Below are positions 1 through 62,479 of a stretch of 64,000 bases of DNA, one piece after another. Position 1 is the first letter of the stretch. Each line of letters begins with the position of its first letter. The stretch lies in assembly GCA_013407085.1 (NCBI GenBank), contig JACCGJ010019016.1, positions 17,005-81,004 of the forward strand, read 5' to 3'. The position numbers and the translations under genes are program-made. Source of the DNA: Atriophallophorus winterbourni (lineage: Eukaryota > Platyhelminthes > Trematoda > Plagiorchiida > Microphallidae). The notes beneath the pieces were generated by a model, which had not been told where the DNA came from, ran no database searches, and saw only the letters and a list, made by a program, of their open reading frames with translations.

Positions 1-163
1 GGATCGGTCACTCAAAGTGCCATTCTGATTGATAGTTGCATTCAAGCATAACTTACCTTCGATTTTATATTTAATGTTCTTCAGCATTCCTTTTTTCACG
101 AATAATTCAAACCACCGAAAACAGTTTCATATTATGGTCTGATATTTTGAATGCTTGTTTCAG

Positions 164-397
164 AAAATCCGCAATGCAGTTGACAAACGACAAGCTTATT
201 ATTACCGAACGGATGGCTTATTTGCACGGGCTATTAAAGTTACACGATGGGTCGCCCAGGTTGCTTTCTTGCACAATGTTTCCTTCACCATTTCCGAAGG
301 CAGTTTTGGATTTTGCCGAATCGCTTCAGCCTGAGTTGAATTTATTGTTCCACAAAGTAGCATTAGATCACGAGTTTTTGGATCGGATTTTCAAACA
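164..397 (+). CDS. GSS: GSS exon (first in window)
   Basis: The acceptor is a pyrimidine-rich TTGTTTCAG ending at 163. An alternative AG at 179 would shorten the exon by 16 bases. The frame encodes YLHGLLKLHDG, then MFPSPFP and a segment with ELNLLFHKVALDHEFLDRIFK. This matches the N-terminal substrate-domain region of glutathione synthetases, where FPS.FP is conserved. The donor at 398 is GTAGTC, which is weak. It was chosen because it leaves two bases that join exactly with the next exon and keep the alignment gap-free. Confidence 0.85.
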
Positions 398-2071
398 GTA
401 GTCTATAAGCCTACTCTAATTTTATAGCATTGCAGATCACGATGATTATGTAAAGCATTTATGGGATATCTACTCGCGTGTTCGTGGCACGGAACATAAC
501 AAAGTAGGTACTTTTGTTCGGCATTCGAACAGTTTTATGATTCTCCTAGATCTTATTATCGATGGATTATCTAGATTATCATTCCTCACATCTGACCGGT
601 TCCGTCAATCATTAGCTATGCCTTACTTTGCCTGGCTCCATAGTATTTGTATTGATGCTGAATTCTAAATCAGTACTGCTCGCATAAACAAACTCCGAGT
701 TTCTTATTCAACAGAACATCGATCGCGTAATATATAAATATAAAGTATTCGTCAACCGCCTTCTTTATATTATCGTTTGTGCAGCCGATACCATTATACA
801 TACATACGTATGACGCTGCTATCTGTATTTTTATTGCCACTTTAATGTTATGTGTTGTGAATGTTCTGAAGACGATTTCCTTTTCTATGCCGCATCCAGA
901 TTAATGCAGAGTCTGAACTTTTAGCCCAACTGCAATTGCTACTGCCATCTCCCAACCTGAGGTCCCCGCAATCTGACTTCGCGTTGGTTATTTTAACTAA
1001 AGAATACGTTTCATAATCATCTTCAGTGCCTGTTTTGCCGTAAGAATCTTTATGGGGTGTTTGCATAGTATTATGCTTTTACTAAATTGTGTTATAAGGA
1101 AACTTTGTGTTGGCGAATAGAAGTGAAAGCTATGAGTAAGCTGCATCGCAGCTCGTTCACCTGCGGTGTAAGCGCAACAAACTCATTTGAATGCGACCCG
1201 TAACTGTAGGTACGCGGATATTAAAGCCTCTTTTATTCGAAAAAGTAACTCAATGGTGATTATTGGTAGTTATCAATTTATACATGATATCGCTGTAGTG
1301 CTTCCATTACGCTCACAATAACTGTTTGGTCGAAATAATCAGCAATCGTTCTTTTAGTGGCCCAGTAAACAAATGGAGACTAATTTTTAGGTAACCTCTC
1401 CGGGTGCCTTTGACGCAACAGCTTTGATATGGACTGATTTAAACCGAAAAGTGATATCTCTTTGCTGATAATGACCAATTTGCCAATGAATTCAATGATC
1501 ATGTTAGTTATACTGTAACAAGATTTTGACCTGCTTTCCGAGCTTCGTGCATACTTTTTTGTAGAATCTGACACTGTGGCACTTGGCCTGGATCAGGCTT
1601 GTGCTTTCATACTATGAATATATACCGTGGATTGTAACTCTTCTGAATAATTTTGACCACAGCTTCTTCGGTGGACCTTACATTCTGGTCAACAATGTAA
1701 AGTTTTTTGTACATACTTTCCTTTTACGTAATGTCTAGTTTCACTTTAAATTAGGGATTAAAATCTTGTTCAGTCGCGACCTTCCTATAAGCATCTCACT
1801 TTGAGTGAACTTGAGCGCTTACGAATGGGGGTGTTAAGAAAAGCTCACCATGTGGCATAACACTGAATTCTGCAAGAAGCCTATTTTACTGATCTCGCAC
1901 TGTTCAGTTACCTCACTTGATTATTGTCCGTACGTGTCAGAGACGTTGGTGCCTCCACCTAGTTTTCATGTGCGTCATCCTTATGGATACAAATCTTATG
2001 ATTTCCTTTCATGTTCCCTGTTTATATATATATATATATAGAGATATAGAGATATAGATAGATATATAGAT

Positions 2072-2118
<47 letters not shown>

Positions 2119-5100
2119 CTATATAATATTATATATATATATAATCAGTAAGGAGTTGCTTTAAAATGGAACATGAGATAAATCATATATATGCTGATAT
2201 GCGTTTCTGTTTCGAGGAAACTGGAGTTTTATTCTGTTGATTCTTTGTTTCAGCAGGTCATTTTTCTGGGCCTGAATCGCTCCGACTACATGTTGGATCA
2301 AGGAAATGATGCGATTCTATCAACGGAAACATCATCATTGGCCAAACTTCATCGTATAGACACAGCTGCCTCCTATCCAATCTCTACTGATTCTTGGTCG
2401 GGTTTAACGTTACGTCAAGTGGAATTTAATCTGATGGCTTCCAGTTTTTGTGGGCTCGGTCCCCGACTCGTCAAGTTTCACCGAGCTGTCTTAGGTCTGA
2501 ATCAGTTTAGAGACGAGCAAATCCGACGTGTAAGTTTGTTGCATTATAAATCCGCATTTGCATACATTTTTATCACCCATACTCTATGGCCGGTTTCGTG
2601 CTGTTTGTACTCATTCCTCATCCAGATGAGCTCTCACCATTATTGTGCACGGATGTGCAATCGTGCAGCATTCCTGTGCTGTACGGCTAACATCGTGCTA
2701 AATTGATTGGCCAACGGTAGTGATCTGCATGCTGAAACACGCTGTAGTCACTACGATTTCTATCCCCCCCTCATATCTGTCTAGGCCTGGGCATGCTGAA
2801 ACACGCTGGAGTCTCACTACCATTTCTATTTCACCCTCATATCTGTCTAGGCCTGGGCAACCTGACAGTATCTTAGCCCACGTGCAGTCTCTGACTGTGC
2901 GGCACTTTACCTGGATCAGGCTTGTGCTTTTATACCATATACTCACCATTATTTAATGAACTACATACTGTAAGCTTGGGCATCGTGGAAAAAAGACATC
3001 GCATTACGAGAGAGGATTTGTCGTATGGTAGCTAAAATGGTTACCGGAATGCATTAGCTCTACGTTGATCAGTCGCTACCTAGACCCCGGTTGAGCACTC
3101 TGGAAGATTGACACATTCCAGATGTTCTGATCCTGATGTATAGAAAAGTGCATGCGATGTCTCTTGACACGAATCATACGCTTATATTTAAATGGCTGGC
3201 TTCACACCACTCTCGTCCTAAATATTGGTCAGTTCGTGCTAGTGTTATATGAAAAAGTTTTTTTAACAAAAGTGGGAGATTTTCTGTCGCGTAACCATGC
3301 TTTGGCATCTGTTTGCTGCAAAGTTTTGGTATAATTACGACCTGCACACTCTCTTGAAAAATACTGTCTGAACCACCTTGATGGAAGTTTGATACTCTTG
3401 CTCTCCTGTGATACTTGAAACTATTTGATATTTTGCCATAAATCTTGTATTTGGCGCGTATAACTAATGATGCAGCAGACAACCAGTTATTTGAAACTGG
3501 TTTATTCTCGAAAGCTGGCAACTATCTATCATTAAGAACTGTTCATTGGGCATGGATATCCAATGGTCACCGATGTACAATCGTACAGTACTTTTGTGCT
3601 GTGCGGCTTACATCGTGGTAAATCGACTGGCCGTCCGTAGCGAGTTGTATGTTGAAACACGCTGGAGTCTCACTACAGTTTCTATTTTCTTTCTTACATC
3701 TGGGCTTGGCCAACCTGACAGTATCTTAGCCCACGTGGATTTTATGACTATGCGGCAATTTGCCTGGATCATTTTTGTGCTTTCATACATACATAATTGA
3801 AAATTTCGGTCGTGTGAAACGGTTCGTTCGATTTCCTGATAAAACAATTTGAGTAAAGTCCATTAAAATCATGGTTGATGCCTAGCAAATGCTTTTTGCA
3901 GTCCATTCCACAGTAACCATACCTTTGTATTTACGTGACAATTCCTTACAATGATGATTTGGCTTCATTGCTTGATCGAGAGACACAAGTATCTCTGTAC
4001 TAGTGATACCCCAACATTAAACTGCGTTTTTTTCGTTGCATATTTTATAAGCACATCTCAAAATTGGCCTGTTTCGGAAACGCGTAAATATGCAAATATG
4101 CAGTACTTCCCACTGCATTTCCCACTGCCGTGCCAAATCCATTGCCACCGTTAACTAACTGTAATTGAGAACATGCTGTTCGTCTAGTTTGGCACAACGT
4201 GCAGGCGTTATAGCAAGCGTTCAGCACGATAGTGACCGATTTCGAACGTGTTTACGTTCATTCATTGCCCATATCTATGTACTGCTGTCCATCTTCATGC
4301 GCACAACACTTATTTCTTGTCAAGGTCCCGGATTGCTCGTCCGCCGAGAAGTTCGCTACAGCAATTGGATTCGCGCACAAACTCTACATGCAGTCCACTT
4401 CTGGACTAAACCAATCTGAGCGCGGCTGTGGCATTCTGATGATTGTTTCTTCTGATGAGACAAACATATTCGATCAAACGGCGATACTCGAAGAATTAGC
4501 CTTGAAGCATCCTCACATTCCATTGCTAGTGCGTACGCTAGTGCAGTTGGAGGAGCCTACCGAAGGGCTATCTGTTGATAGCAGTCGCCGTCTTTTCGTG
4601 TGAGTTGATTATACATCCGTTGGAGTGATAAGAAACAATAATTATGCTAGGCTTACAATAATTTATAATGTAACGTTTTAACCTTTCTCAACATGTAAGT
4701 GTGAAGGATATTCTAAGTCTCATTTCCCTTTCTATTATCGCTTTCAGTTAGCATCAAAATAAAGGCCTAACTATTACCTCTTAATGTGTTAACTACCCGG
4801 TACGCAGTATTTTTCCTCTTACTTTTCGCGATTTTAGATTATCAACGTTTACAATGTCTTCCTCTGTGCTGATGCCTACCTGCAGTTTCAATATATGTAT
4901 GTACGAAATCACATATCTGATCCAGGCAAAGTGCCGTACAATGAGAGATCGCACGTGGTCTTAATACTCAGATTGCACTGGCGTTAACAGATATAAGCAA
5001 CTAAGCTTAAAGCGTAAAGTGGTAGTGGTATGGTATAGTATGAAAGCACAAGCCTGATACAGGCAAAGTGCCGCACAGTCAGAGACTGCACGTGGGCTAA

Positions 5101-8100
5101 GTTACTGTCAGGTTGCCCAGGCCTAGACAGATATGAGGGGGGGATAGAAATCGTAGTGACTACAGCGTGTTTCAGCATGCAGATCACTACCGTTGACCAA
5201 TCAATTTAGCACGATGTTAGCCGCACAGCACAGAAATGCTGCACGATTGCACATCCGTGCAAAGTGGTAGTGAGACTCCACCGTGTTTCCGCATGGAGCT
5301 CAGTGCTGGTAGCAGATCAATTTTGCACTGTATTAGCTGCGCAGTACAGAGTGGCATAAAAACTCGAGCCTGATCCAGGCAGAGTGGCATAGTCAGAGTG
5401 GGCTAAGATACTGTCAGGTTGTCCAGGCTTAGACAGATATGAGAAAGAAAATAGAAATGGTATTGTGACTCCAGCGTGTTTCAGCATGCACCTCACTACC
5501 GGTAGCCAATCAATTTAGCACGGTATTAGCCGCACAGCACAAGTAATATACGATTGCGCATCCATGTCAATGACTAAAACTGGTGTAGCTGATGTGATAT
5601 CGCTCACTGCATAAGCCCGTAAACTATTCTCTGCACTGATTTTACACCTGGCCGTACATTCTTTTTAAACGCACTAGTAGCGATGATGGAACCCGTGACG
5701 TTTTGCGTGCATGCGCGAGCGTTACGGTTGTTCATCGTCGCGCTGAGACTGGACCTTAACGTGGTGCGATGGTTTGTGCACCTCTATGACCCATTGAGCT
5801 ATGCTGGGTGGTGCTCTCCGAGCACCTTCAGAGTCACTCATACCAGGAAGGTCAATGGATAGAGGTCAGACGAACACGGTCTCAACCTAACCCGCGGCCT
5901 TGTGGGTCAGGCTTTTTAGCCAAAGGCTTTGGTCGAGAACCCTAATTGTTCTCCTGTCTAGGCATGGGCGACCTGGCAGTATCCCAGCCCGCATACAACG
6001 ATGACCATGACTATTACTACGAAACCCAACTCCATAGTGCATCGGCCGTCGCGCACGATAAACAGGGTCGCCTTACCTGCTGCATACAGCAGGGCGGGTA
6101 AGTGAAAACAAGCTACTGCTGGCCCTACTCTTCAAACTGTTTCTGACCCTTCCCCTCCCCCAGCCATTCTTAACAACTCTTCGTCTGTCAATCCCAGTTT
6201 TAGAAAAGACCGCGCTGAACATGGAACATTTTTTGTTCGCGAATTTACAGATCACTTTCTGAAACCACGGACTTCAGCTCACATCGGAGCCATGAATGTC
6301 AGAACTCTCAGACAAATAGGCCAGCAAGCTGCACTAGCTCTTACCTTAGATGGTCTATCTATTGATGTTTGCTGTTTATCGGAAACGCACTTATATGATC
6401 CGTCTACAATTACTGAACTTACTGCCCCAAACCTTTCAACTCGCTACTTTTTGCGCTGCTCTGGTGATTCTATAGCTGCCATCTCAGGACAGGCGGGTGT
6501 TGGTATAGTGCTGAATTCACGTGCCGAAACCTGTCTAATCGATTGGATTCCTTGTAATAGCAGGATGTGCGCAGTTAGACTAACCACTAATATTAGACCA
6601 AACTCAAAATCTTTTAATCAGCGATGCTTGTTTATTATAGCAACTTACGCTCCGACTAACACCAATTCAAACGATGAGAAGAATGCCTTCTACGACGATC
6701 TTTATGCTCTTTTGCGACGTGCAAAAAGCTCCGATATTGTTGTCTTATCGGGAGATATGAATGCCGGACTGGGTCGCTTAGATACATCTGAATCACAATT
6801 AGGTGGCATGTTTGGTCTTGAAAGCCAACGCACAGATAATGGTGAACGGTTTATACAATTCTGTGCACAGATTGGTTCCAATGGTTGTCACAGCCGGGGG
6901 TGGTTGTAGGAATGAGCCACCTACTATCTATAAAATGCTCCCACGTGGCGTGCGTCTTAGTAGCCTCTGACAACCAAGTCCAACTCATGGCCTGCACGAG
7001 TGGCTTTCACAAGCCCGGCGGAACTGCTCTTACTGACAGGAGACGGGGCGAATGCGGGTGACTGGCGCCTTAAAACCAGTTTGCTCCGGGCAGATGGAGC
7101 TCGTCAGCTACTGGCAATCCATCTAAGGGAAGGAAAACCCTGACTCCAAACCCACACTGCCTTGTGGGTCACCCGATTGCGGGAAAGGCTTCGGGAGTAA
7201 ACCCCGAGGAAAAATCCGGAGAGAAGCCCCGTAGGTAGATAACTGGCGCACAGCGCGTTTATCTGCCAACTCCCTGCTGCCTTGTAGGTTGCACTTGGCT
7301 GTGCAAAGGCTAGAGAGGTGTACTCGAACAAACACCAAGTGGTGCTGGGGAAATCATTTGTACACTATCCCCAAGAAACTTCATGATGTCTCAACGTATA
7401 TCTCAGCTCTCTGCTACGGCGTTCCCGAGACGCGACGCGCCCTAGGCTCTCCCAGCGGCTGTGGTGAAAAGTAAGCTAGCTGGGGCCATAAATATCCGTA
7501 AGGAATTTTATCTGGGATGCTTGATGTTGGTAGTCAAGCAATCACAATGCGCTCTTTATTGGACTACCAAGTAGATGTTGCTTGTCTCTTCGAGGTCCGC
7601 CTTCCCGGACACGGATCCAAATCGATCGAGGTCCCCGGAGTCGATCGTACTTATTGGCTTTTTTATGGTGGGCCCGAGGATGGATCTGGTCAGCATGGAG
7701 TAGCGATAGCGCTCAGCGACCATGCTAAACAAGCACTCATGTCATGGATGCCTGTATCCCCGAGAATCGCGGTGGTCCGGCTGAGGGTCACCCTTTGAAT
7801 ATAACAGTCGTTTCGGAGTATGCCCCAACCCTATCAGCCGACCAAACTACAAAAGACGACTTTTATGACCAACTTCAATTCGTAGTCGATAGAGTTGCTG
7901 GAAACGACGTCCTTTTTGTGGTTGGTGACTGGTACGCTCGTACAGGATCAGCAGATTCCGCAACAAACCGAATCCTGGGAAAATTTGGCCTATATATATA
8001 TCTAATATATATATCTATATATATATATTAATAATATATATTCACAATCATTTAAAAATGAAAAAGTGCCACCCGGCAATGCACGAGAAAAAGAAAGAAA

Positions 8101-11100
8101 AAAAGGTACAATATGAGGGGGAATTTTTTTGTCCATTGTTCCACATGTCGATTTTTTGATTTTTTTTCCACAAATTTGAGGGGTGAACACAAAATAGAAT
8201 GCACTCTCTCCACTGTTGCCGGTTCTCAGCCATCGTCGACAGCGTGTCAAGCCACAGACACTCACTATCCCTTGGACCCCACCCAGGAAGCCGCGTTCGT
8301 CCGACCCGAGCTAAACCCGACGTCAAGCGTTTTTAGGCCTTCTTCCAGGTCAGCGGTTGTCCACCTGAACACCGCCGCCAGCCTGGGCCAACCGACACAC
8401 GCAGCGCGCGGAAGGGTAGGCGCTCAGGCTTCATTCTCAAGACATGCCCTAGCCAGCGGAGACGGGAACGGTCGATTAGGTCTCGTAGCATCAGGATGTC
8501 CACACCTAGAACACGGTGCCTCACTTCAACGTTGCTAGTGCGGTGTTGCCACCACACTCGTGCAAGCCTCCGTAAACATCGATGTTCAAACACCTCCAAG
8601 CGCCGGAGCTCCTCTGCGCGAACTGCCCAGCTCTCGCACCCGTAAAGCAAGCCCGACCTGACTGAGGCCAGGTAAACTCTCCCCTTGAGTCTCAAACTCA
8701 CGTCAGACCGCTTCCAGAGATGACCTAGACTAGTGAACGCGAAGCGCGCTCTCGCAATGCGAGAGCCGATCTCACTTTCCAGCCCTCCTCCCGCCGTGAT
8801 GCAGCTACCAAGATAGGTGAACTGTTCCACACAGTCCAGACTGAGGTCATCCACCGTCAGAATGGGATGCAACCCCTCCCAATCTTGAAGAAGAACCTTA
8901 CACTTAGTTGGAGCTAAGTGCAATCCGTACCTAGACGCCTCCAATGCTAGCTGGTTCAGTGCATTCTGTAGGAACACCGGATCATCACAAAGCAAAGCAA
9001 TGTCATCGGCATAATCAAGGTCAGTGACACGATTACCTGGAAGTAGCTCGATCCCACCCTCAGTGAAGCTACGGAGAGCATTCTGGAGGACATCCTCGAT
9101 CGCAAAGTTGAACAAGAATGGGGACAGCGTGTTTCAGCATGCAGATCACTACCGTTGACCAATCAATTTAGCACGATGTTAGCCGCACAGCACAGAAATG
9201 CTGCACGATTGCACATCCGTGCAAAGTGGTAGTGAGACTCCACCGTGTTTCCGCATGGAGCTCAGTGCTGGTAGCAGATCAATTTTGCACTGTATTAGCT
9301 GCGCAGTACAGAGTGGCATAAAAACTCGAGCCTGATCCAGGCAGAGTGGCATAGTCAGAGTGGGCTAAGATACTGTCAGGTTGTCCAGGCTTAGACAGAT
9401 ATGAGAAAGAAAATAGAAATGGTATTGTGACTCCAGCGTGTTTCAGCATGCACCTCACTACCGGTAGCCAATCAATTTAGCACGGTATTAGCCGCACAGC
9501 ACAAGTAATATACGATTGCGCATCCATGTCAATGACTAAAACTGGTGTAGCTGATGTGATATCGCTCACTGCATAAGCCCGTAAACTATTCTCTGCACTG
9601 ATTTTACACCTGGCCGTACATTCTTTTTAAACGCACTAGTAGCGATGATGGAACCCGTGACGTTTTGCGTGCATGCGCGAGCGTTACGGTTGTTCATCGT
9701 CGCGCTGAGACTGGACCTTAACGTGGTGCGATGGTTTGTGCACCTCTATGACCCATTGAGCTATGCTGGGTGGTGCTCTCCGAGCACCTTCAGAGTCACT
9801 CATACCAGGAAGGTCAATGGATAGAGGTCAGACGAACACGGTCTCAACCTAACCCGCGGCCTTGTGGGTCAGGCTTTTTAGCCAAAGGCTTCGGTCGAGA
9901 ACCCTAATTGTTCTCCTGTCTAGGCATGGGCGACCTGGCAGTATCCCAGCCCGCATACAACGATGACCATGACTATTACTACGAAACCCAACTCCATAGT
10001 GCATCGGCCGTCGCGCACGATAAACAGGGTCGCCTTACCTGCTGCATACAGCAGGGCGGGTAAGTGAAAACAAGCTACTGCTGGCCCTACTCTTCAAACT
10101 GTTTCTGACCCTTCCCCTCCCCCAGCCATTCTTAACAACTCTTCGTCTGTCAATCCCAGTTTTAGAAAAGACCGCGCTGAACATGGAACATTTTTTGTTC
10201 GCGAATTTACAGATCACTTTCTGAAACCACGGACTTCAGCTCACATCGGAGCCATGAATGTCAGAACTCTCAGACAAATAGGCCAGCAAGCTGCACTAGC
10301 TCTTACCTTAGATGGTCTATCTATTGATGTTTGCTGTTTATCGGAAACGCACTTATATGATCCGTCTACAATTACTGAACTTACTGCCCCAAACCTTTCA
10401 ACTCGCTACTTTTTGCGCTGCTCTGGTGATTCTATAGCTGCCATCTCAGGACAGGCGGGTGTTGGTATAGTGCTGAATTCACGTGCCGAAACCTGTCTAA
10501 TCGATTGGATTCCTTGTAATAGCAGGATGTGCGCAGTTAGACTAACCACTAATATTAGACCAAACTCAAAATCTTTTAATCAGCGATGCTTGTTTATTAT
10601 AGCAACTTACGCTCCGACTAACACCAATTCAAACGATGAGAAGAATGCCTTCTACGACGATCTTTATGCTCTTTTGCGACGTGCAAAAAGCTCCGATATT
10701 GTTGTCTTATCGGGAGATATGAATGCCGGACTGGGTCGCTTAGATACATCTGAATCACAATTAGGTGGCATGTTTGGTCTTGAAAGCCAACGCACAGATA
10801 ATGGTGAACGGTTTATACAATTCTGTGCACAGATTGGTTCCAATGGTTGTCACAGCCGGGGGTGGTTGTAGGAATGAGCCACCTACTATCTATAAAATGC
10901 TCCCACGTGGCGTGCGTCTTAGTAGCCTCTGACAACCAAGTCCAACTCATGGCCTGCACGAGTGGCTTTCACAAGCCCGGCGGAACTGCTCTTACTGACA
11001 GGAGACGGGGCGAATGCGGGTGACTGGCGCCTTAAAACCAGTTTGCTCCGGGCAGATGGAGCTCGTCAGCTACTGGCAATCCATCTAAGGGAAGGAAAAC

Positions 11101-14100
11101 CCTGACTCCAAACTCACACTGCCTTGTGGGTCACCCGATTGCGGGAAAGGCTTCGGGAGTAAACCCCGAGGAAAAATCCGGAGAGAAGCCCCGTAGGTAG
11201 ATAACTGGCGCACAGCGCGTTTATCTGCCAACTCCCTGCTGCCTTGTAGGTTGCACTTGGCTGTGCAAAGGCTAGAGAGGTGTACTCGAACAAACACCAA
11301 GTGGTGCTGGGGAAATCATTTGTACACTATCCCCAAGAAACTTCATGATGTCTCAACGTATATCTCAGCTCTCTGCTACGGCGTTCCCGAGACGCGACGC
11401 GCCCTAGGCTCTCCCAGCGGCTGTGGTGAAAAGTAAGCTAGCTGGGGCCATAAATATCCGTAAGGAATTTTATCTGGGATGCTTGATGTTGGTAGTCAAG
11501 CAATCACAATGCGCTCTTTATTGGACTACCAAGTAGATGTTGCTTGTCTCTTCGAGGTCCGCCTTCCCGGACACGGATCCAAATCGATCGAGGTCCCCGG
11601 AGTCGATCGTACTTATTGGCTTTTTTATGGTGGGCCCGAGGATGGATCTGGTCAGCATGGAGTAGCGATAGCGCTCAGCGACCATGCTAAACAAGCACTC
11701 ATGTCATGGATGCCTGTATCCCCGAGAATCGCGGTGGTCCGGCTGAGGGTCACCCTTTGAATATAACAGTCGTTTCGGAGTATGCCCCAACCCTATCAGC
11801 CGACCAAACTACAAAAGACGACTTTTATGACCAACTTCAATTCGTAGTCGATAGAGTTGCTGGAAACGACGTCCTTTTTGTGGTTGGTGACTGGTACGCT
11901 CGTACAGGATCAGCAGATTCCGCAACAAACCGAATCCTGGGAAAATTTGGCCTATATATATCTATATATATATATATTAATATATTATATTATCTATTAT
12001 CTATATATATTTACCACAATCATTTAAAAATGAAAAAGTGCACCCGGCCCAATGCCCGAGAAAAGAAAGAAAAAAAGGTTACAATCTGAGGGGGGATTTT
12101 TTTGTCCATTGTTACACATGTCGATTTTTGATTTTTTCTTTTTTTAACAAAATTTTAAGGGGTGAAATTTGAGGGGTGAACACAAAATAGAATGCACTCT
12201 CTCCACTGTTGCCGGTTCTCAGCCATCGTCGACAGCGTGTCAAGCCACAGACACTCACTATCCCTTGGACCCCACCCAGGAAGCCGCGTTCGTCCGACCC
12301 GAGCTAAACCCGACGTCAAGCGTTTTAAGACCTTCTTCCAGATCAGCGGTTGTCCACCTGAACACCGCCGCCAGCCTGGGCCAACCGACACACGCAGCGC
12401 GCGGAAGGGTAGGCGCTCAAGCTTCATTCTCAAGACATGCCCTAGCCAGCGGAGACGGGAACGGTCGATTAGGTCTCGTAGCATCAGGCTGTCCCCACCT
12501 AGAACACGGTGCCTCACTTCAACGTTGCTAGTGCGGTGTTGCCACCACACTCGTGCAAGCCTCCGTAAACATCGATGTTCAAACACCTCCAAGCGACGGA
12601 GCTCTTCTGCGCGTACTGCCCAGCTCTCGCACTCGTAAAGCAAGACCGACCTGACTGAGGCCAGGTAAACTCTCCCCTTGAGTCTCAAACTCACGTCAGA
12701 CCGCTTCCATAGATGACCTAGACTAGTGAACGCGAAGCGAGCTCTCGCAATGCGAGAGCCGATCTCACTTTCCAGCCCTCCTCCCGCCGTGATGCAGCTA
12801 CCAAGATAGGTGAACTGTTCCACACAGTCCAGACTGAGGTCATCCACCGTCAGAATGGGATGCAACCCCTCCCAATCTTGAAGAAGAACCTTACACTTAG
12901 TTGGAGCTAAGTGCAATCCGTACCTAGACGCCTCCAATGCTAGCTGGTTCAGTGCATTCTGTAGGAACACCGGATCATCACAAAGCAAAGCAATGTCATC
13001 GGCATAATCAAGGTCAGTGACACGATTACCTGGAAGTAGCTCGATCCCACCCTCAGTGAAGCTACGGAGAGCATTCTGGAGGACATCCTCGATCGCAAAG
13101 TTGAACAAGAATGGGGACAGCGTGTTTCAGCATGCAGATCACTACCGTTGACCAATCAATTTAGCACGATGTTAGCCGCACAGCACAGAAATGCTGCACG
13201 ATTGCACATCCGTGCAAAGTGGTAGTGAGACTCCACCGTGTTTCCGCATGGAGCTCAGTGCTGGTAGCAGATCAATTTTGCACTGTATTAGCTGCGCAGT
13301 ACAGAGTGGCATAAAAACTCGAGCCTGATCCAGGCAGAGTGGCATAGTCAGAGTGGGCTAAGATACTGTCAGGTTGTCCAGGCTTAGACAGATATGAGAA
13401 AGAAAATAGAAATGGTATTGTGACTCCAGCGTGTTTCAGCATGCACCTCACTACCGGTAGCCAATCAATTTAGCACGGTATTAGCCGCACAGCACAAGTA
13501 ATATACGATTGCGCATCCATGTCAATGACTAAAACTGGTGTAGCTGATGTGATATCGCTCACTGCATAAGCCCGTAAACTATTCTCTGCACTGATTTTAC
13601 ACCTGGCCGTACATTCTTTTTAAACGCACTAGTAGCGATGATGGAACCCGTGACGTTTTGCGTGCATGCGCGAGCGTTACGGTTGTTCATCGTCGCGCTG
13701 AGACTGGACCTTAACGTGGTGCGATGGTTTGTGCACCTCTATGACCCATTGAGCTATGCTGGGTGGTGCTCTCCGAGCACCTTCAGAGTCACTCATACCA
13801 GGAAGGTCAATGGATAGAGGTCAGACGAACACCGTCTCAACCTAACCCGCGGCCTTGTGGGTCAGGCTTTTTAGCCAAAGGCTTCGGTCGAGAACCCTAA
13901 TTGTTATCCTGTCTAGGCATGGGCGACCTGGCAGTATCCCAGCCCGCATACAACGATGACCATGACTATTACTACGAAACCCAACTCCATAGTGCATCGG
14001 CCGTCGCGCACGATAAACAGGGGTCGCCTTACCTGCTGCATACAGCAGGGCGGGTAAGTGAAAACAAGCTACTGCTGGCCCTACTCTTCAAACTGTTTCT

Positions 14101-15946
14101 GACCCTTCCCCTCCCCCAGCCATTCTTAACAACTCTTCGTCTGTCAATCCCAGTTTTAGAAAAGACCGCGCTGAACATGGAACATTTTTTGTTCGCGAAT
14201 TTACAGATCACTTTCTGAAACCACGGACTTCAGCTCACATCGGAGCCATGAATGTCAGAACTCTCAGACAAATAGGCCAGCAAGCTGCACTAGCTCTTAC
14301 CTTAGATGGTCTATCTATTGATGTTTGCTGTTTATCGGAAACGCACTTATATGATCCGTCTACAATTACTGAACTTACTGCCCCAAACCTTTCAACTCGC
14401 TACTTTTTGCGCTGCTCTGGTGATTCTATAGCTGCCATCTCAGGACAGGCGGGTGTTGGTATAGTGCTGAATTCACGTGCCGAAACCTGTCTAATCGATT
14501 GGATTCCTTGTAATAGCAGGATGTGCGCAGTTAGACTAACCACTAATATTAGACCAAACTCAAAATCTTTTAATCAGCGATGCTTGTTTATTATAGCAAC
14601 TTACGCTCCGACTAACACCAATTCAAACGATGAGAAGAATGCCTTCTACGACGATCTTTATGCTCTTTTGCGACGTGCAAAAAGCTCCGATATTGTTGTC
14701 TTATCGGGAGATATGAATGCCGGACTGGGTCGCTTAGATACATCTGAATCACAATTAGGTGGCATGTTTGGTCTTGAAAGCCAACGCACAGATAATGGTG
14801 AACGGTTTATACAATTCTGTGCACAGATTGGTTCCAATGGTTGTCACAGCCGGGGGTGGTTGTAGGAATGAGCCACCTACTATCTATAAAATGCTCCCAC
14901 GTGGCGTGCGTCTTAGTAGCCTCTGACAACCAAGTCCAACTCATGGCCTGCACGAGTGGCTTTCACAAGCCCGGCGGAACTGCTCTTACTGACAGGAGAC
15001 GGGGCGAATGCGGGTGACTGGCGCCTTAAAACCAGTTTGCTCCGGGCAGATGGAGCTCGTCAGCTACTGGCAATCCATCTAAGGGAAGGAAAACCCTGAC
15101 TCCAAACTCACACTGCCTTGTGGGTCACCCGATTGCGGGAAAGGCTTCGGGAGTAAACCCCGAGGAAAAATCCGGAGAGAAGCCCCGTAGGTAGATAACT
15201 GGCGCACAGCGCGTTTATCTGCCAACTCCCTGCTGCCTTGTAGGTTGCACTTGGCTGTGCAAAGGCTAGAGAGGTGTACTCGAACAAACACCAAGTGGTG
15301 CTGGGGAAATCATTTGTACACTATCCCCAAGAAACTTCATGATGTCTCAACGTATATCTCAGCTCTCTGCTACGGCGTTCCCGAGACGCGACGCGCCCTA
15401 GGCTCTCCCAGCGGCTGTGGTGAAAAGTAAGCTAGCTGGGGCCATAAATATCCGTAAGGAATTTTATCTGGGATGCTTGATGTTGGTAGTCAAGCAATCA
15501 CAATGCGCTCTTTATTGGACTACCAAGTAGATGTTGCTTGTCTCTTCGAGGTCCGCCTTCCCGGACACGGATCCAAATCGATCGAGGTCCCCGGAGTCGA
15601 TCGTACTTATTGGCTTTTTTATGGTGGGCCCGAGGATGGATCTGGTCAGCATGGAGTAGCGATAGCGCTCAGCGACCATGCTAAACAAGCACTCATGTCA
15701 TGGATGCCTGTATCCCCGAGAATCGCGGTGGTCCGGCTGAGGGTCACCCTTTGAATATAACAGTCGTTTCGGAGTATGCCCCAACCCTATCAGCCGACCA
15801 AACTACAAAAGACGACTTTTATGACCAACTTCAATTCGTAGTCGATAGAGTTGCTGGAAACGACGTCCTTTTTGTGGTTGGTGACTGGTACGCTCGTACA
15901 GGATCAGCAGATTCCGCAACAAACCGAATCCTGGGAAAATTTGGCC

Positions 15947-15977
<31 letters not shown>

Positions 15978-18900
15978 TATATATAATATATATATTTAAA
16001 CCCAATCATTTAAAAATGAAAAAGTGCCACCCGGCAATGCACGAGAAAAAGAAAGAAAAAAAGGTACAATATGAGGGGGGATTTTTTTGTCCATTGTTAC
16101 ACATGTCGATTTTTTGATTTTCTTTTTTTTCACAAATTTGAGGGGTGAACACAAAATAAATTGCACTCTCTCCACTGTTGCCGGTTCTCAGCCATCGTCG
16201 ACAGCGTGTCAAGCCACAGACACTCACTATCCCTTGGACCCCACCCAGGAAGCCGCGTTCGTCCGACCCGAGCTAAACCCGACGTCAAGCGTTTTAAGAC
16301 CTTCTTCCAGATCAGCGGTTGTCCACCTGAACACCGCCGCCAGCCTGGGCCAACCGACACACGCAGCGCGCGGAAGGGTAGGCGCTCAAGCTTCATTCTC
16401 AAGACATGCCCTAGCCAGCGGAGACGGGAACGGTCGATTAGGTCTCGTAGCATCAGGATGTCCACACCTAGAACACGGTGCCTCACTTCAACGTTGCTAG
16501 TGCGGTGTTGCCACCACACTCGTGCAAGCCTCCGTAAACATCGATGTTCCAACACCTCCAAGCGCCGGAGCTCCTCTGCGCGTACTGCCCAGCTCTCGCA
16601 CCCGTAAAGCAAGACCGACCTGACTGAGGCCAGGTAAACTCTCCCCTTGAGTCTCAAACTCACGTCAGACCGCTTCCAGAGATGACCTAGACTAGTGAAC
16701 GCGAGAGCCGATCTCACTTTCCAGCTCTCCTCCCGCCGTGATGCAGATACCAAGATAGGTGAACTGTTCCACACATTCCAGACTGAGGTCATCGACCGTC
16801 AGAGTGGGCTGCAACCCCTCCCAATCTTGAAGAAGAACCTTACACTTAGTTGGAGCTAAGTGCAATCCGTACCTAGACGCCTTCAATGCTAGCTGGTTCA
16901 GGGCATTCTGTAGGAACACCGGATCATCACCAAGCAAAGCAATGTCATCGGCATAATCAAGGTCAGTGACACGATTACCTGGAAGTAGCTCGATCCCACC
17001 CTCAGTGAAGCTACGGAGAGCATTCTGGAGGACATCCTCGATCGCAAAGTTGAACAAGAATGGGGACAGCGTGTTTCAGCATGCAGATCACTACCGTTGA
17101 CCAATCAATTTAGCACGATGTTAGCCGCACAGCACAGAAATGCTGCACGATTGCACATCCGTGCAAAGTGGTAGTGAGACTCCACCGTGTTTCCGCATGG
17201 AGCTCAGTGCTGGTAGCAGATCAATTTTGCACTGTATTAGCTGCGCAGTACAGAGTGGCATAAAAACTCGAGCCTGATCCAGGCAGAGTGGCATAGTCAG
17301 AGTGGGCTAAGATACTGTCAGGTTGTCCAGGCTTAGACAGATATGAGAAAGAAAATAGAAATGGTATTGTGACTCCAGCGTGTTTCAGCATGCACCTCAC
17401 TACCGGTAGCCAATCAATTTAGCACGGTATTAGCCGCACAGCACAAGTAATATACGATTGCGCATCCATGTCAATGACTAAAACTGGTGTAGCTGATGTG
17501 ATATCGCTCACTGCATAAGCCCGTAAACTATTCTCTGCACTGATTTTACACCTGGCCGTACATTCTTTTTAAACGCACTAGTAGCGATGATGGAACCCGT
17601 GACGTTTTGCGTGCATGCGCGAGCGTTACGGTTGTTCAATCGTCGCGCTTAGATGGACCGCGAAGCGAGCTCTCGCACTGCGAGAGCCGACTCACCTTTC
17701 CAGCCCTTCCTCCCGCGTTGATGCACGCTACCAAGATAGGTGAACTGTTCCACACAGTCCAGATCCTGCGGTCATCCACTCGTCAGAATGGATGCAACCG
17801 CCCAATCTTAAAGACGAACCTTATCCCTAGTTGGAGCTAGGTGCAAATCCTTACCTAGACGCCTCCAATGCTGCTGGTCAGTGCATTCTGTAGGAACCAC
17901 CGGCTCATCACAACAGCCACAGCATGTCATCGGCATATATCAAGGTCAGTGAACGGTTGTTACCTGGATAGTAGCTCGATCCCACCCTCCAGTGACGCTA
18001 CGGAGAGCAATCTGGAGGACATCCTCTATCGCAAGTTGACAAGAATGGGGACAGAGGACAGCCCTGGCGCAACGCCATGGTTTTGGGAACGCACGGCGAT
18101 GGCTGCCGTTAGACCCGACCCTCCGAAGATGAGAATAAGCTCCTTCAACGATGGCGACCATCACTAGTAGGGATGCCACTCCTAAGCAAGCAGTTCCAAA
18201 GAGTAGTTCTGTCCACCGAGTCGAACGCGGCCCGGATGTCCAGAAAAGCTACGATGGTTGGTCGCCGGTACAGGTGTCTGTGCTCTAATAACTGTCGCAG
18301 GACAAAAACCTGATCCACGCATCCTCGCCCCGGGCGGAATCCAGCCTGTTCCTCACGGCAACGTAACTCTCGAATGGGCGATAGCCGACGAAGGAGGATG
18401 GAAACCAGGAGTTTAGACGCGACAGGAGTCAGGGATATCCCACGATGATTGGAACACAGATTCCGTGCGCCCTTCTTAAAGATTGGGATAACCGCCGATT
18501 CACCCCATGACGCCGGGACCCGCTCCTCAGCCCATACTTTGGTAAACAAATCACGTAACTCCGCTGCCACAAGATCACCTCCCTCCTTAAACAAAATCGG
18601 GTGGAGGTCGTCAGGACCAGGTGACTTGTGGCGCTTCAGTGCTCGAATTACATCTCTCACCTCCTGTAGATCAGGAGCGGCTAAGGAAACGGGCCAAGGC
18701 GTGCAAATCGGTGTCTCAGGCGGCGAGGTCGGAGGAGGTGGCTGGCTGAACTGAGCACTAAAGTGCTCAGCCCATCGTTCTAAGCGTCTACTAAGATTGG
18801 TGATCGGCGAGCCGTCAGTTTCGCAAATAGTCTCGCTCACTGTATTCAGTTTCGAACCAGTAGCTCTAATTAACTCAAACAACTTGCGAGTATTGCCCGA

Positions 18901-21900
18901 TGCGGCAGCAACCTCCATCTCACAAGCACGTTGCGTCCATCAGAACTCGCGGTCATTCCTTAAGCTGGCCTTTAAGCGGGTATTGAATTCTCTGCGGCCA
19001 CGGTTGTGTTCAGTGCCGGTGGGTAAAGTTCGACGGTGATCGATTAAAGCAAGTGACTGGGCCGAGATCCAAGAGCGTGGTAAAGCGCGGGTGGGTTGAC
19101 AGCTTTCAGAAGTAGCGCAGGACAGTGCTGTCCGAACGAAGTTCCAGTGCTGCTCAACATCAGACGGGGGTGCTTCTGCGAGCTCCCCGGTCAATGCATG
19201 ATGGAACTTGGTTCTGACAGCGGGGAGCATCAAAGAGGCGGTGTCTACATGAGTTCGTCTTGCGCGTGCCTTACCCCCAAATTGGAAGTTGACTGTCGCA
19301 CAGACTAGCGCATGGTCCGAGTCCACACTGGTGGTCCAGTATGAACGACAATCCTTGATGCTACCATGCCACCTGTAGCTAATAGCAATGTGGTCAATTT
19401 GAGACCAGACGTGCTGTGATGGTGAGCGCCATGTGGCCATTCGACGCTGGGAACGCCGAAATGCCGTACTGGAGAGATAGAGGCGGTGATCGCCACAGAA
19501 TGTCAGCAATCGTTCCCCGTTATCTGAACGCCCGCCATCCAGCCCATACTGACCTCCAATGTGGCGCTCGTATTCAGACAGGCGACTAACGCGAGCGTTG
19601 AGATCTCCTGCCATGATTACGACATCTGTCCTACGTGCCTTGCGAAACAAACTATGCAACTTCTCATAGAAGTTGTCCTTACTGAGATCCGCACTACAGT
19701 CCGTTGGAGCGTAAGCAGAAATCACAAACAAAATCCCTCCGCGTTTCGCGCCGCCTGTTCACCCGACAGTGGCCACGAAATCGTGCACCGCACAGTCTGC
19801 TGTCAACGGGAATCCACTCTAAGAGTGATTGCTCAGCACGGGAGCTGAGCGCGATACCGACGCCAGCCAATCCGGCAGAGGAAGCATCCGGGTCACTAGA
19901 GAGGCGCAGGTGGAATCTGCGTTCTGGTTCAGCTGGTGAGACCAACTGACAGACTTCGCTTGTGTCACGGAAACGGGTTTCCGACAAGCAGCAGATATCA
20001 ATGCCTAACGTCTCGAGCGTTCGTGCAAGGCCGGCCTGTTGTCCCGGTTGTAGCAAGGTCCGAACGTTAAACGAAGCTAACCTAAATGAAACCCGCGGGC
20101 GTAGAAGAGTTGCAGCAATCGACGGCTGTCTAGACGGCATGAGTCGTATATCAGGTAGAGAGAGCGAATCGGGGATGGTAACATGTGGAGAAGAGGCGGT
20201 AGAAGCAATAGAAGAGATAGAGTTAGGAATTTCTAGTACTGTTATTGTCATTGTTTGGGTGTGGGCGTGATACTACCCGGTTGCCCAGGCCGAAGTAGAG
20301 GAGTTGATCTTGAGGACTCCCACCTCAAGCATTTGGCCCGAAAGCCTAACCCGCAAGGCAGCGGAGCGAGATTAAGGATCGCACCTATCGGGGCCGGATA
20401 CTGTAGGTACAGTTCACAAGCCATTCGCGAGGTAGAGACCAAGCAGGGACTCCCGACATCATCCCAACCAGTCGAGCCGGTGATCCTTGCGGATTCCTAC
20501 GCCTCTCCTGGTATACAATGTCCACGAGGGACAAGGAGACTGTGTTTGTCTGGCTTCTCACCATTGACCAACCTGGTATGAGTAACTCTGAAGATGCCAC
20601 GAAGACATCACCTAGTATAGCTCAATGGATCATGGAGGCTCGCAAGCCGCTGCACCACATCAAGGTCCAGTCTCGGCGCAACGGCACGGTGCACGGTATC
20701 AACAGCAAACGATAGCTTGCTTTATTGACTTCCGCGCCGCCTTCGACTCCGTAGACCGTGGTTGTTTATGGGACATCATGCATTCGGATGGGGTTCCATT
20801 AAAGCTCGTCAACCTAATCAGAGCCTACCACAGCTCTACAAGGGCACGGGTAGGTGTCTACGGTGAAGAATCGCGTGAATTTAACTTGCACACAGGAGTC
20901 AGGCAAGGTTGCCCGCTATCGCCGGTTATGTTTAACTATGTCGTAGAGTGGATAATGAACCAGGCGTTAACAGACTATCAAGGGGTGCAAATTTCAACGG
21001 ATCTATGGATTTCCGACCTTGACTACGCTGACGATATAGTCGTTCTGGGCGACAATACCGAAATGCTGCAAAGCGTTTTAGACCGCATTAGTTCCACTGC
21101 CGCGAAAGTCGGTCTTGAGATAAACGCGGTTAAAACCAAGGCATTTTTTATACCGACACACCAGGCATCCAGCCACTTCGCGTCCAGGGTTGTCCGATTG
21201 AATACGTTCCAGTCTTCAAATATCTCGGCTCAAGTATATTGCCCAATGATCAGGCGAAAGATGAAGTGAAGTTAAGGGTCGATCGTGCTTGTAATGCGTT
21301 TTTGCAGTTGAAGGGCACCCTTTGGCGCAAGCCCGGGATCAGCCTAAAAACTAAGACGCGTGTTTATCAAGTAGCGATCCGCCCTGTACTGCTTTATGGA
21401 TACGAGACATGGCCTTTAAGGTCACAGGATGTACGCACATTAGAAGTGTTCGACCATTGGTGCCTCAGGGTAATCTTGGGCATCCGATATACTGACCGAG
21501 TATCTAACGCAGCCGTACGAGAGCGTTGCAGCGGACTATCTCCACTTTCCGCTCACATACAACGGCGAAGGCTGCAATGGTTTGGCCACGTCCTCCGAAA
21601 GACAGACACAGCACTTCCAAAACTCTTCATCGACCCCGAACCCGTTCGCACCTGGCGTCGGCGGCAAAGTGGTCAAGTGAAAACCTGGCTGTCAACTGTG
21701 AAAGAGGATGTAGACACCCTGGGTCTGCGTACCGTCTACGGATGTGCACGGATGTGCAATCGTGCAGCATTTCTGTGCTGTGCGGCTAACATCGTGCTAA
21801 ATTGATTGGCCAACGGTAGTGAGCTGCATGCGAGTACACGCTGGAGTCTCACTACCATTTCTATTTCTATTTACCCCCTCATCTGTCTAGGCCTGGGCAA

Positions 21901-24900
21901 CCTGACAGTGTCTTAGCCCACGTGCAGTCTCTGACTGTGCGGCACTTTGCCTGGATCAGGCTTGTGCTTCCATACATATACGAGACTGGATCACGATCTG
22001 CAACGATCTCGCCTCCGATCGACGTGCGTGGGCTGGTGCGATCCGTGACATCAATGAAGCCGGCTAATCCACCCGTGGAGCCAGTCGCACAAAAGTAAGT
22101 ACAATCTCGATTATTAATTAGCAGCACTTCCTTTCGCCACAAATTATGTCAATGTGCCACATGGCGCTCGCCGGATGGAAGCCAACCTTCGGCCCAAATC
22201 GACCATATCGCCATAAGTGCTCCCTGGAGAGGTTGCATTGAGGACTGTCGCTCCTTTTGGAATACTTGCGTTGATTCAGATCATGCTCTGGTGCGATGTA
22301 GGTTCTCGTTAAAGTTCTCCTGTACGAAGCCTTCGAATGGGAAACGCATTGTGGTCAAAAAACTCTTTCAGCCTGCAGTTCAAGACATTTATAGGACCAA
22401 CTTGAGTAACTCACTCCCAGTTGCTCAGTGTGCAACTGCCGATGAAAGGTGGAACAAAATAGCGAGCCGCCGCAATAACAGCCTATGAGACTGTACAAGC
22501 AACACAAAAGTCCCACTGGATTTCGCAGCGCTCTATAGAAATTCTTCACCGGCGACGCCAAATACTTCATGGTCCCGAACACAATACAGAGCGTAGACGC
22601 GTGAGGAATGAACTTAAACGGAGCTTCAGACTAGACAGAGAAAGGTGGTGGCTAAATAAGGTCGAAGAAATGGAAATAGCAAATAATGCGGGTAACGTGC
22701 GAAAACTCCTAAAAGATGGAGAAGAGTGGGACTTAAATTGCTACGGCTTCTATAGAAGAGTAAGCACAAACTAGGAAGAGGTGCCTACACCTCGAATGAT
22801 AACTGCATTCAAACAAGCTTCGTGACCGAGTAGAGCGACATCAGCACGGCAGCTTCCTTGCCGGTTTCACTATCATGCATCATAACAAGCTTTTCTCGTC
22901 ACTCCACTTGACAACATACAAGGTTAAGCAAATACTCCAAGAATATGCTTAGTGCAAGACCGCCATTGAACACAGTTTTTGGACATATCCTGAAGCATAA
23001 CTAACCATTGCGATATCTGATTGCGGGTCGAAGAAATGGAAATAGCAAATAATGCGGGTAACGTGCGAAAATCTCTTCCAACTTATTCGATCGACTGGGT
23101 CTGCGAAAAAAGGAGTGAGTGAGACTATCGTTGAGATAGACGGTACTCTTATCACTAATAAGAATCGCCGTCTCTCACGTTGGGCCGAACATTTTGAAGA
23201 ACAATTCAGCTGGTCGCCTGCAAAAGAATCTTTCCCTCATTTGAAGCAGTGTGATCCTTGGTCTGTTAGCGTAGATCCCCCTAATGATTTAGAAATTAAA
23301 GAATGTATCGAATCGATGAAACGATTCAAAGCTGCTGGCCCCGATGACATACCACCTGTTTTGTTCAAAAAAGGTAGCCAAATTCTAATCACAACATTAG
23401 GCGATCTCCTCCGTGAAGAGTGGTTGTCAGAATCCGTCCCTCCGAGTTTGGGGTGAATCGGTTATCATACATATATTTAAAAAAGGTGTGCGAAGCTCAT
23501 GCTCTAATCACCGTGGGATAAGTCTCACGCCCATCATTACGAGATTGTTAGCGTCCATATGTCTTCGAAGATTAACATCACATAGGGAATCACAGATCCG
23601 AGAGCAGCAAGCTGGCTTCCGACCTGGCAGAGGCTGTGTCGACCACATTTTTACTCTTCGACGGATCTTAGAACTGCGGCACACTTATCGACAGCCGACG
23701 ATAGCCATCTTTTTAGACTTCAAAGGAGCATTCGATTCGGTCGATCGAAATGTCCTGTTTAACACCTTGCTGTGCAAAGGCGTTCCGCAAACGTATGTCA
23801 ACATACTACGTTCACTTTATGCTCATACATCCGGATGCGTTAGGGTTTACAACGAACTCTCACCCAAATTCCACACCACAAGTGGCGTACGACAAGGATG
23901 CCCGATTTCTCCGTTTTTGTTCAATTTTGTAATTGATGCAATTATGGAATTGTGCAACGATGGTGCCCCAGCTTTCGGAGTTCACATAATGCCAGGCGTC
24001 AAGCTTCTCGACTTGGATTATGCTGATGATATAGTTCTGCTCTTCGACTCGTACACAGATGCACAGGCGATACTGAACAAGCTATCTAGTATTGTGTCTG
24101 CATTTGGAATGCGTTTGGCACCCTCTAAGTGCAGTGTTCTGCTGCAGGACATCGACATATCGAACACCACTTTATTACTTGACAATCAGGCTCTTGAAAT
24201 TGTAGATCGTTTTACGTATCTCGGTAGTTGTATCAATAATTCTGCATCGTTAGATGACGAGGTCTCGGCACGTATTTCTAAAGCGACCGTAGCATTCCGC
24301 AAACTAGGTCACCTCTGGCGTCAGAAAGGACTATCTCTGTTACTCAAGGGTAGAGTCTATAAAGCGACAGTTCGCGCTGTGTTACTATATGGGTGCGAAA
24401 CCTGGACCTTACGTAAAGAACACATTCAGCGTCTTCAAGTATTTGACAACCGGTGTCTTCGCAGCATTCTAGGAGTCAGCTGTTACAATCGCATGCGCAC
24501 CGATGCTCTCCGAAATAAGTTGTTCGGTAGTAATGTTGATATAGAGAAGCAGATCAACCTGTATAGGTTACGCTGGCTGGGTCACCTTTTACGGATGCCG
24601 GACCACCGACTTCCGAAACGGATTCTTTTTGCGACGCCACATCCTGATTGGCGTAAATCTCGCGGTGGCCAAACCGTCACATGGCATAGGCAGTGAAAAA
24701 CCTTTACTAGTAACCTTTCCAAGGTAGGCGCAGCGCGTCTTCCAGGCTGGCGTCCCCGTTATCAGATATCGCAATGGTTAGTTATGCTTCAGGATATGTC
24801 CCGAAACCGTGTTCAATGGCGGTCTTGCACTAAGCATATTCTTCGAGTGTTTGCTCAACCTTGTATGTTGTCAAGCGGAGTGACGAGAAAAGCTTGTTAT

Positions 24901-27900
24901 GATGCATGACAGTGAAAGCCGCAAGGAAGCTGCCGTGCTGATGTCGCTCTACTCGTTCACGAAACTCGTTTGAATGCATGTTCCATTCGAGGTGTAGGCA
25001 CCTCTTCCCAGTTTGCTTGTGCTTACTCTTCTATAGAAGCCGTAGCAATTTAAGTCCCACCCTTCCCCCATCTTTTAGGATTTTACTTTTTCATGGTTGT
25101 ATGGCAGTTAAGTAGCGGTGTAATGCTGTCTTTGATAATGATGATGACGGTTGTTCATCAAGACCCTAATCGGAGGTTGTGAGGATGTTTGCCTTGTTCA
25201 CAACCCCTTTGAGTGAACAACATTACAAAATAAAATCTTTGTTATATCCGCCTAAATACAATGCTCTAAGTGCAAATGATTGTCAAGTGCTTATTCCACC
25301 CTTATACCGCGCAGAAGCTAATGGAATGTTTGTTGCAGGGTTTTGTTGCAAAACTTTTCGTCCACATTAAACAAACTATTTTCTCAACTTGGCGTAATCA
25401 TATGTACTCTGTTTCGCGCATAAGGTTTCACCAACACCATGCAGACAGTTTCTGTTCTGTACAATTCTCTCCAACATATTTTAGGTCATCCTACCTTTCT
25501 TTGCCTCTTGCGTTCTATTTCAATTCTTGCTGCTTGGTTTGCGTAGCGTGTGGCCTGCCCACTCCTTGATCTCAGTAGATGGGATTTCGGTTGGTATTCA
25601 TTCATCGCTTAATGTTTGACATCTTTTCGGGTCATCTAATTCTGAGAATGCGATGCAAGCACCTGTTAGCAAAGATCCGTAATGGTTTTAGGTACTTTTT
25701 GTGAATGATATCGTTTTTTGTGGTTGCAAGTGGTCATACTTTGCTCACTTAGTGTGATTGTACGGTGCCTAATGAACTTACCTCGCTGTATTTCTTTGCA
25801 ACCAACCAGGCAAGATCAAGAAATCGCTGTTGTCTATTTTCGATCAGGATATTCGCCGTTGCATTTTCCACGTGAAAAGGTGCGTTCGATGTGCTGTCTT
25901 CCACTACATTCCATGATTCCTCGTACTATTCACCAATCGTGTTATTACTATTGCCGTTATTATCAGAATTTATATTATTGACCAGCGATAATTCTGCCCC
26001 GGTTCTTTCCGTAACGATCAGACATGGGAGGTGAAGTATCATTTAGAACGCTCATTGGCGGTCAAGTGCCCTTGCATCCAATACATGTTGGCCAACACGA
26101 AGCTTGTTCAAGCCGCTCTTTCGAAACCAGAAAACTTGGCACGTTTCATCAACCCCGCTAGTGACGTTTACCAACAGGTGCTCGGTACATTTGCTAAGCA
26201 ATTCACATTGAGTGATGTGTTTGGTTTGTCGGACGCTGTCGAGATACAGGAGGCAGTCAATCACTGTTTGAAACACCCGGAACGTTACGTGCTGAAGCCA
26301 CAACGAGAGGGTGGTGGGAATAATTATTTCGACGGTGAGGTTTGTCATTCATACTATTGACTTTAATATTGCTTATTGTTTCTTTGCCATCGCCGATTAC
26401 ATTCTCTATCTTAACTTGAGACATTAACGTCTTCCGCTTTTTGACCCACCGGCTCCATTCCTAGGTCAATTTCAAATCTTAATGTTGTTATCTGGTGCAC
26501 ACACCTGTCTTTTGGTTTCACTTAAGCTCATACAGACGCTTGGTAAGCTATACTAACCGGCTGGTTACTTAACTTTGATGTTGGGACTGTTGCTATTGGG
26601 CTAAGGTCAATGGTGTCACAATGGTTGAAAATAGACGGCTCCACTATTACAATTGATGAATTCTCCTTTTCGTTAACGGCTATTTTCTCCTTTAATGCTT
26701 TGCAGACAATACAAACAATGCATCGAGAGAAAAATTTATGCAATCGGTTAGAGAATTTTTGCTTAACGTTTTGCTTCTGACATGGGATGTGTGTGGAATA
26801 TTACTTTGTTTATTTCCTGTCTTGGATATTACCCTTGGTATCGCGAAGTACGTTACTCAAAAATTGTTCTGACCAATTGCGTACAAATTTCTTTCCATTT
26901 TGTTTACACGATCGGTCTCAAGCACATTCCAAACAATTACGTACAATTTATTTTCCTAGCAAAAATGCGAGTCCTAGCATTAAAATGGAATGTGGGGTGT
27001 TTTGCTTTTCATTGTTGCATGGTTAATGTCTTTTTTCAATGTAGGTTTTCTATTCTTATATTTCATTCTTTCATAGCCATGGATTGTCTTCTGGGTTTTT
27101 ACCTTTGTCGTTTAGATAACCCTTTGCTCTAAAAACATGAATTTTGTGTATGTTATCACTCTTTTGGTATATGAAGATAATGTAAGGGCAATCAACTATT
27201 TTCTTTCGAAGTAAATACGTTTGTGAAAGCAATTAGTGTTCCTAAGTCCGTGTGATTTTATTGTATCACGAGATGTTTTCACGTTGTGTGGATTCAGGCT
27301 TTTGTTGCAAGATGATATTGACGATAATTAATACTGATATACACATTCGCGAGAAGATTGTTGATATTTATCTCCGGGCCACGAACTTGACTGAGTCTTA
27401 AATTTCGCTGTTGCTTGTTCGCTTTCAGTCTCGACAAAAACCACCTGGCGGTATATTGGTCCGTATGCTTTGGTTTCCCATACACTGCATTTTGCGTGAC
27501 CATGTTTTCGTATTTCCCTCGATTTGAGCTTCTACGATGATTTCTTTGAAGAAACGGATATTGTCGTTCAGGACGTGCAGATGAGCTCAGGCTTTATCCT
27601 AGGCTTTTTCGGTCAGGATTCTGTCATTTTGCACTAAATTGCCACTGCTTCGGAATCCACACTTTTTGTATACGAATGCATTTTTGACTAAACGTTTTTG
27701 CTCTATATGCGCGCACATAACTGCCTTTGTTGAGCTCCACCATCTGAATTCTTATATCCATTCCAGCCGAGCTTGTTCGAATGCTAAGTCAGATCACCTC
27801 CACCGATGAACGACGTTCGTATATACTAATGCAACGCCTATACCCTACCGTTGTGGAAAACTATAAATTAGATTCCACTGGCTCCCTACCGCATCCTGAA

Positions 27901-35796: not shown

Positions 35797-35856
<60 letters not shown>

Positions 35857-62446: not shown

Positions 62447-62479
62447 TTCAATGTGTACTCGCTGATCGCCCCCTCTGCA

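Follow-up and report, generated by a model that had tools for sequence, protein, structure and literature searches.

In a 2025 review (PMC12628747), composite satellite monomers holding parts of several transposons are proposed to arise when graveyards of nested transposons become tandem. The review also describes the tandem transposon dimers of McGurk and Barbash, which result from double insertion as elements reinsert at one target, and which are regarded as raw material for satellites. Here we describe a head-to-tail array of ~4-kb units, made of pieces of nested retrotransposons, in an intron of the glutathione synthetase (GSS) gene on contig JACCGJ010019016.1. The window, that is, the whole stretch of DNA analysed, comprises the last 64,000 bases of this contig, and the genome searched consists of 537,331,230 bases in 15,840 contigs. 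We regard the array as probably a real microhomology-mediated tandem duplication of a retrotransposon nest that was later expanded, where the mechanism, the order of expansion and the copy number are those that we infer.

The array and the nest that it repeats

The start of the unit is present four times, at 5162, 9124, 13117 and 17066, with spacings of 3962, 3993 and 3949, and the last unit stops just before the ACAG at 18051. The whole array is contained in the GSS intron. An earlier note on this DNA had placed a tandem array there with these spacings, and the end that it gave, 18055, is correct to within 5 bases. The features of the intron are as follows, with the strand in brackets where one applies.

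4598..25809 (+): GSS intron holding the nest and the array, ~21.2 kb; borders predicted (GTGAGT donor, CAG acceptor)
5162..9123: unit 1, 3962 bp, with the parts given in the next four lines
5162..5566 (-): truncated 3' ends of a non-long-terminal-repeat (non-LTR) retrotransposon family; the 3' end of the same family is also at 21745-21981
5738..6869 (+): 5' half of element C, encoding an endonuclease (Pfam PF03372); C is taken up again at 22101
6870..7985 (+): 5' part of element D, placed at the insertion point in C, where there is a 3-bp overlap ACA; its frames resemble an endonuclease
7986..9123 (-): 3' part of element E, comprising its (TA)n tail and the C-terminal portion of the reverse transcriptase; E is taken up again at 18051
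9124..13116: unit 2, 3993 bp
13117..17065: unit 3, 3949 bp; its E part has lost 20 bp
17066..18050: unit 4, internally deleted by ~2.98 kb; raw-read-like sequence from 17639
17639..18255: block with the error profile of uncorrected long reads; its end is known to ~150 bp
18051..20682 (-): 5' part of element E, lying beyond the array, with the endonuclease and the first part of the reverse transcriptase
20683..22100 (+): reverse transcriptase part, flanked by E and by the remainder of C; probably the place where D resumes
22101..24840 (+): element C continuing; supported by C copies to 23969 and by a reverse transcriptase match to 24840; holds an insert near 22706-23025

No element was assigned to the ~170 bp between 5566 and 5738. 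By their domains, C and E are endonuclease-type non-LTR retrotransposons, which we take to be RTE-like in name. E carries PF14529 and PF00078 (Pfam), an endonuclease and a reverse transcriptase, while C carries PF03372 and has reverse transcriptase matches at 23473-24840 (tblastn), in the stretch that the C copies join to it. The endonuclease-like frames of D were matched by tblastn only, at 36-37% identity, and had no match in Pfam.

The evidence for duplication comes from the other copies of these elements in the genome. In all nine C copies fetched, out of 37 other long matches, position 6869 joins 22101 directly, and the 3-bp overlap ACA at this join fits a target-site duplication of the material inserted in C. 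For E, 62 of 64 copies pass from 9123 to 18051 without a base gained or lost; one of the remaining copies is off by 1 base and the other by 7, and a stricter E-value gave a count of 61. On the left, the edge of the unit (5162) falls in the middle of one non-LTR 3' end (5033-5261), and 18 alignments in the fetched loci, as well as the copy at 21745-21981, show this element unbroken there. C, E and the left element thus all match a single-copy ancestral arrangement, as a tandem duplication requires. Since C and E are continuous in other copies, the locus was once a single nest, and 9124-18050 (8,927 bp) was added inside E. The unit as a single mobile element was ruled out, because both of its borders lie inside elements that are continuous elsewhere and it has no defined ends.

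The 64 E copies were obtained from 66 fetched loci, from which three shorter pieces (L059, L065 and L074) were dropped by a 600-base cut and in which one locus, L022, counts as two copies; L090 was excluded as a duplicate of L022. All of them were picked as best matches, either of unit 1 or of the junction probe, and the sample is therefore biased towards these. Both families are of high copy number, with at least 40 long matches outside the array for E and at least 37 for C. Among 36 E copies (L001-L008 and L013-L039) the mean identity over 924 bp is 99.4%, a value biased high by the choice of best matches, which suggests from sequence that the E family was recently active. The earlier note had called the nested cluster dead; this describes the broken copies at this locus, but not the young E family as seen in that best-match sample.

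Some further arrangements of C and E were observed. The insert in C, of ~320 bp (window 22660-23071), is flanked by a perfect 46-bp direct repeat and is a 91.5% inverted copy of 24755-25084. It is missing from all nine fetched C copies, whose two matching stretches overlap by ~49 bases there. L022 (G000:C5624:1-4500) holds two head-to-tail E copies at 14-4500, in which a 5'-truncated E gives way at 1434|1435 to a longer E copy, starting with the (TA)n tail of the latter, as if E had inserted next to the TA tail of another E. A further E 3' part with a (TA)n tail is found in the window at 35797-36516, with 92.7% identity to 7991-8719, beside reverse transcriptase pieces on the opposite strand.

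The three unit junctions (atggggACAGcgtg) are clean and identical to each other over the 50 bases compared, and the 4 bp ACAG are common to them and to the two outer borders, gtgactACAGcgtg on the left and atggggACAGagga on the right. In 100 shuffled versions of the window, a 35-base junction probe found no match by chance. The genome searches score the best candidates only, so absence elsewhere is not absolute. With a 237-base junction probe, three full matches were found among the best 40 of 2,500 candidates scored, all in the array. The others of its 41 matches were the left border of the array, which matches the right half of the probe, 36 places elsewhere that match the E half alone, and one place that matches part of the right half at 93%. 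This last place is on C266, which holds one of the 36 as well, but it lies ~75 bp further on and is therefore a different junction. Similarly, the composite 5567-7980 was matched in full three times among the best 40 of 8,367 candidates scored, again always in the array. The matches to a whole-unit query are incomplete, since they miss the array itself; the junction and composite queries did recover it. Neither the junction nor the composite was found at a second locus among the scored candidates, as opposed to the several loci of a satellite. For the earlier proposal of a satellite in formation there is no evidence, no second full copy of the composite having turned up among these candidates. 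Nor did anything examined favour the effect on splicing that the earlier note proposed, the array being placed entirely within the intron.

Differences between the units

Units 1 to 3 have pairwise identities of 98.9 to 99.1% (gap columns excluded), and the differences are unevenly spread. In unit 1 coordinates, 5162-7990 has 4 substitution columns in 2829 and one 1-base indel, the TA tract at 7991-8045 has 9 in 52, 8046-8199 has 21 in 153, 8200-8990 has 22 in 771 together with the 20-bp deletion of unit 3, and 8991-9123 has none in 133. The 20-bp deletion is in none of the 64 other E copies. The description of the units as near identical thus holds for the first 2.8 kb, but not for the E part, where the differences crowd. 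Over its first 573 bases (17066-17638) unit 4 matches unit 1 perfectly, up to a first mismatch at 17639, after which it jumps from unit position ~5755 to ~8735 and closes with the last part of the unit.

In the C part, three substitutions and one indel distinguish the units. When C in unit 1 is compared with the majority of 9 family copies, 29 of 1135 positions differ (2.6%), and none of these varies between units. At 5930 in C, unit 1 has the base of all nine family copies, from which units 2 and 3 differ. The E part has about 10 locus-specific bases in 904 sites (1.1%), one of them in all three units and nine in two of the three. At the nine sites, two units carry a base found in 0 or 1 of the 64 other copies and the third has the family base; this third unit is unit 1 at 8337, 8349 and 8427, unit 2 at 8496, and unit 3 at 8852, 8862, 8867, 8960 and 8989. 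Ten more bases are private to one unit and found in none of the 64 copies, and the single-unit bases at 8334, 8502 and 8621 are found in 1, 31 and 5 of them, respectively. Unit 4 has the array base at five of the six locus-specific sites that it covers.

The 29 shared differences in C and the shared rare bases in E indicate that the units descend from one copy, and the shared locus-specific alleles rule out an independent E insertion in each unit. From the decreasing differences of C to its family (29/1135), of E to its family (~10/904) and between units (4/2829), C is older than E, and E is older than the array. This order of ages would fit nesting followed by duplication, with dates that depend on a correct assembly. 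The earlier claim of a recent tandem amplification of a nested retrotransposon cluster agrees with it, the array being younger than the insertions that it copies (29/1135 in C against 4/2829 between units).

Origin of the array and its surroundings

In the course of events that we favour, C would have inserted into the GSS intron, D into C, and E beside or into D. The segment from the older fragment left of C to inside the reverse transcriptase of E would then have been duplicated head to tail through the ACAG microhomology, and unequal crossing over between the 4-kb copies, or repeat rounds, may have brought the array to its present three complete units plus a deleted one. The array is a passive local duplication that has no machinery of its own and no apparent function. 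Amplification in one step, by rolling-circle or template-switch replication in which an excised circle closed at ACAG is copied and reinserted, would also fit the identical junctions and the nearly invariant 5' block. We hold it to be improbable, as the array keeps the register of its own nest and E resumes on the right at the exact next base, and reinsertion of a circle at its source would be a special case. One-step and stepwise amplification leave the same junctions, and the data do not separate them.

The other explanation to be weighed against a real duplication is an assembly artefact in structure or copy number, where a hybrid or gap-filled assembly re-walked a smaller true duplication or a chimeric join, joined on raw reads, and filled the E part from other loci. 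In favour of this, PMC7936022 describes a trematode genome of comparable size that was assembled as a MaSuRCA hybrid with 18x PacBio; it has 601.7 Mb in 26,114 scaffolds, against 537.3 Mb in 15,840 contigs here, and need not be the same genome.

Several observations weigh against a real duplication and would fit an artefact. The 5' blocks are almost identical, yet the E tails differ, with a divergence far above that of the 5' block (22/771 in the E part against 4/2962 in the blocks compared with it, Fisher p = 4e-12, a comparison that left out the TA tract and 8046-8199). These tails are a patchwork of locus and family alleles with conflicting pairings: units 2 and 3 agree at 8337, 8349, 8427 and 5930, units 1 and 3 at 8496, and units 1 and 2 (with unit 4) at five sites, while unit 4 has the family base and not the array base at 9032. 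Conversion by other E copies, exchange between units or chimeric assembly of a high-copy element could each have produced the patchwork, and pairings of this kind require one of the three. The right end is also of poor quality from 17639 to ~18255. Compared with the E family majority, 17656-18255 has 29 substitutions, 21 inserted bases and 16 deletion events, while the 2,435 bp after 18255 have one indel, the copy cover dropping there from ~30 to ~1. In ~400 bp, the tail of unit 4 departs from unit 1 by 23 mismatches, of which 17 are transversions, and by ~25 internal indels, most of them a single base long; 12020-12169 in unit 2 is noisy too, with 20 inserted bases, 2 deletion events and 4 substitutions. 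A profile of mismatches and indels of this kind is typical of uncorrected long reads. Since the right end is raw-read-like, neither the copy number nor the deletion of unit 4 is safe, and we do not rely on the copy number, nor on bases of the E part that are specific to a unit. The differences between units, which the earlier note had taken as real, are therefore partly suspect.

On the other hand, the junction shares just 4 bp, which should be too short for an assembler to join from overlap alone, yet it recurs three times with different unit tails, and no other full match to it was found among the scored candidates. The three substitutions and one indel in the C part separate the units, and the locus-specific alleles common to them show that the tails were not simply copied from other loci. 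We therefore give a real tandem duplication the greater probability; an assembly artefact we judge unlikely, though it deserves more weight than amplification in one step.

The GSS gene spans 174..30080 (+), and its exon matches are spread over residues 1-510 of P0041, a 510-aa protein of Opisthorchis felineus. The best matches of its joined exons are an unnamed protein (source lgn) at 51%, followed by Opisthorchis felineus and Paragonimus skrjabini miyazakii, both at 48%, and judged from its proteins the window is trematode DNA. The array is flanked by GSS exons on both sides, one ending at 4597 and the next starting at 25810. The left flank, from 4214 to ~4880, had a match at its own locus only, and no second contig of the locus was found in the genome search. 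A search of 1-30000 for known structured RNA gave no Rfam match at the gathering threshold, and a scan of the E protein against viral contigs found nothing. Elsewhere in the window, the open frame at 28755-29054 resembles what we take to be a piece of a piggyBac-type transposase, that at 61462-61896 (-) is presumably an integrase piece of an LTR element, and that at 62425-63993 (+), with weak tblastn matches, looks like a second kind of non-LTR reverse transcriptase.

Relation to described tandem repeats

In a search of the literature by topic words and not by locus, no report of the array was found. If the array is real, it represents an early stage of a tandem repeat made from nested transposons, whose single-copy ancestral state can be reconstructed from copies elsewhere in this genome. 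If it is not, it illustrates that tandem arrays of high-copy elements in assemblies of this kind need spanning reads before claims on age, copy number or splicing are made.

Among known systems, the array is like a microhomology-mediated tandem (segmental) duplication, whose features we give from general knowledge, in its head-to-tail copies with identical internal junctions, the few bases shared at the border join (ACAG), the arbitrary borders inside elements and the one locus found. It differs in having more than two copies and a unit that consists almost entirely of retrotransposon pieces. With the tandem transposon dimers, as outlined in PMC12628747, it shares transposons in tandem, but its unit cuts through elements that are continuous elsewhere. 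Like the composite satellites in the account of the same review, the unit is built from pieces of several nested elements turned tandem; unlike them, it is a 4-kb unit in few copies, at the one locus found, and in an intron rather than in heterochromatin. That we see a composite satellite at birth, with a nest of three retrotransposons in an intron just made tandem by a microhomology event, is quite unlikely. If true, it would show the first step of the graveyard model taking place in euchromatin, at a locus where the ancestral nest can still be read and where the array is already being converted by E copies from across the genome. A satellite has long arrays of many monomers and the array here has three full units and one partial unit; it is not a satellite, and nothing indicates further progress. 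What it resembles, on our analysis, is the first step proposed for composite satellites.

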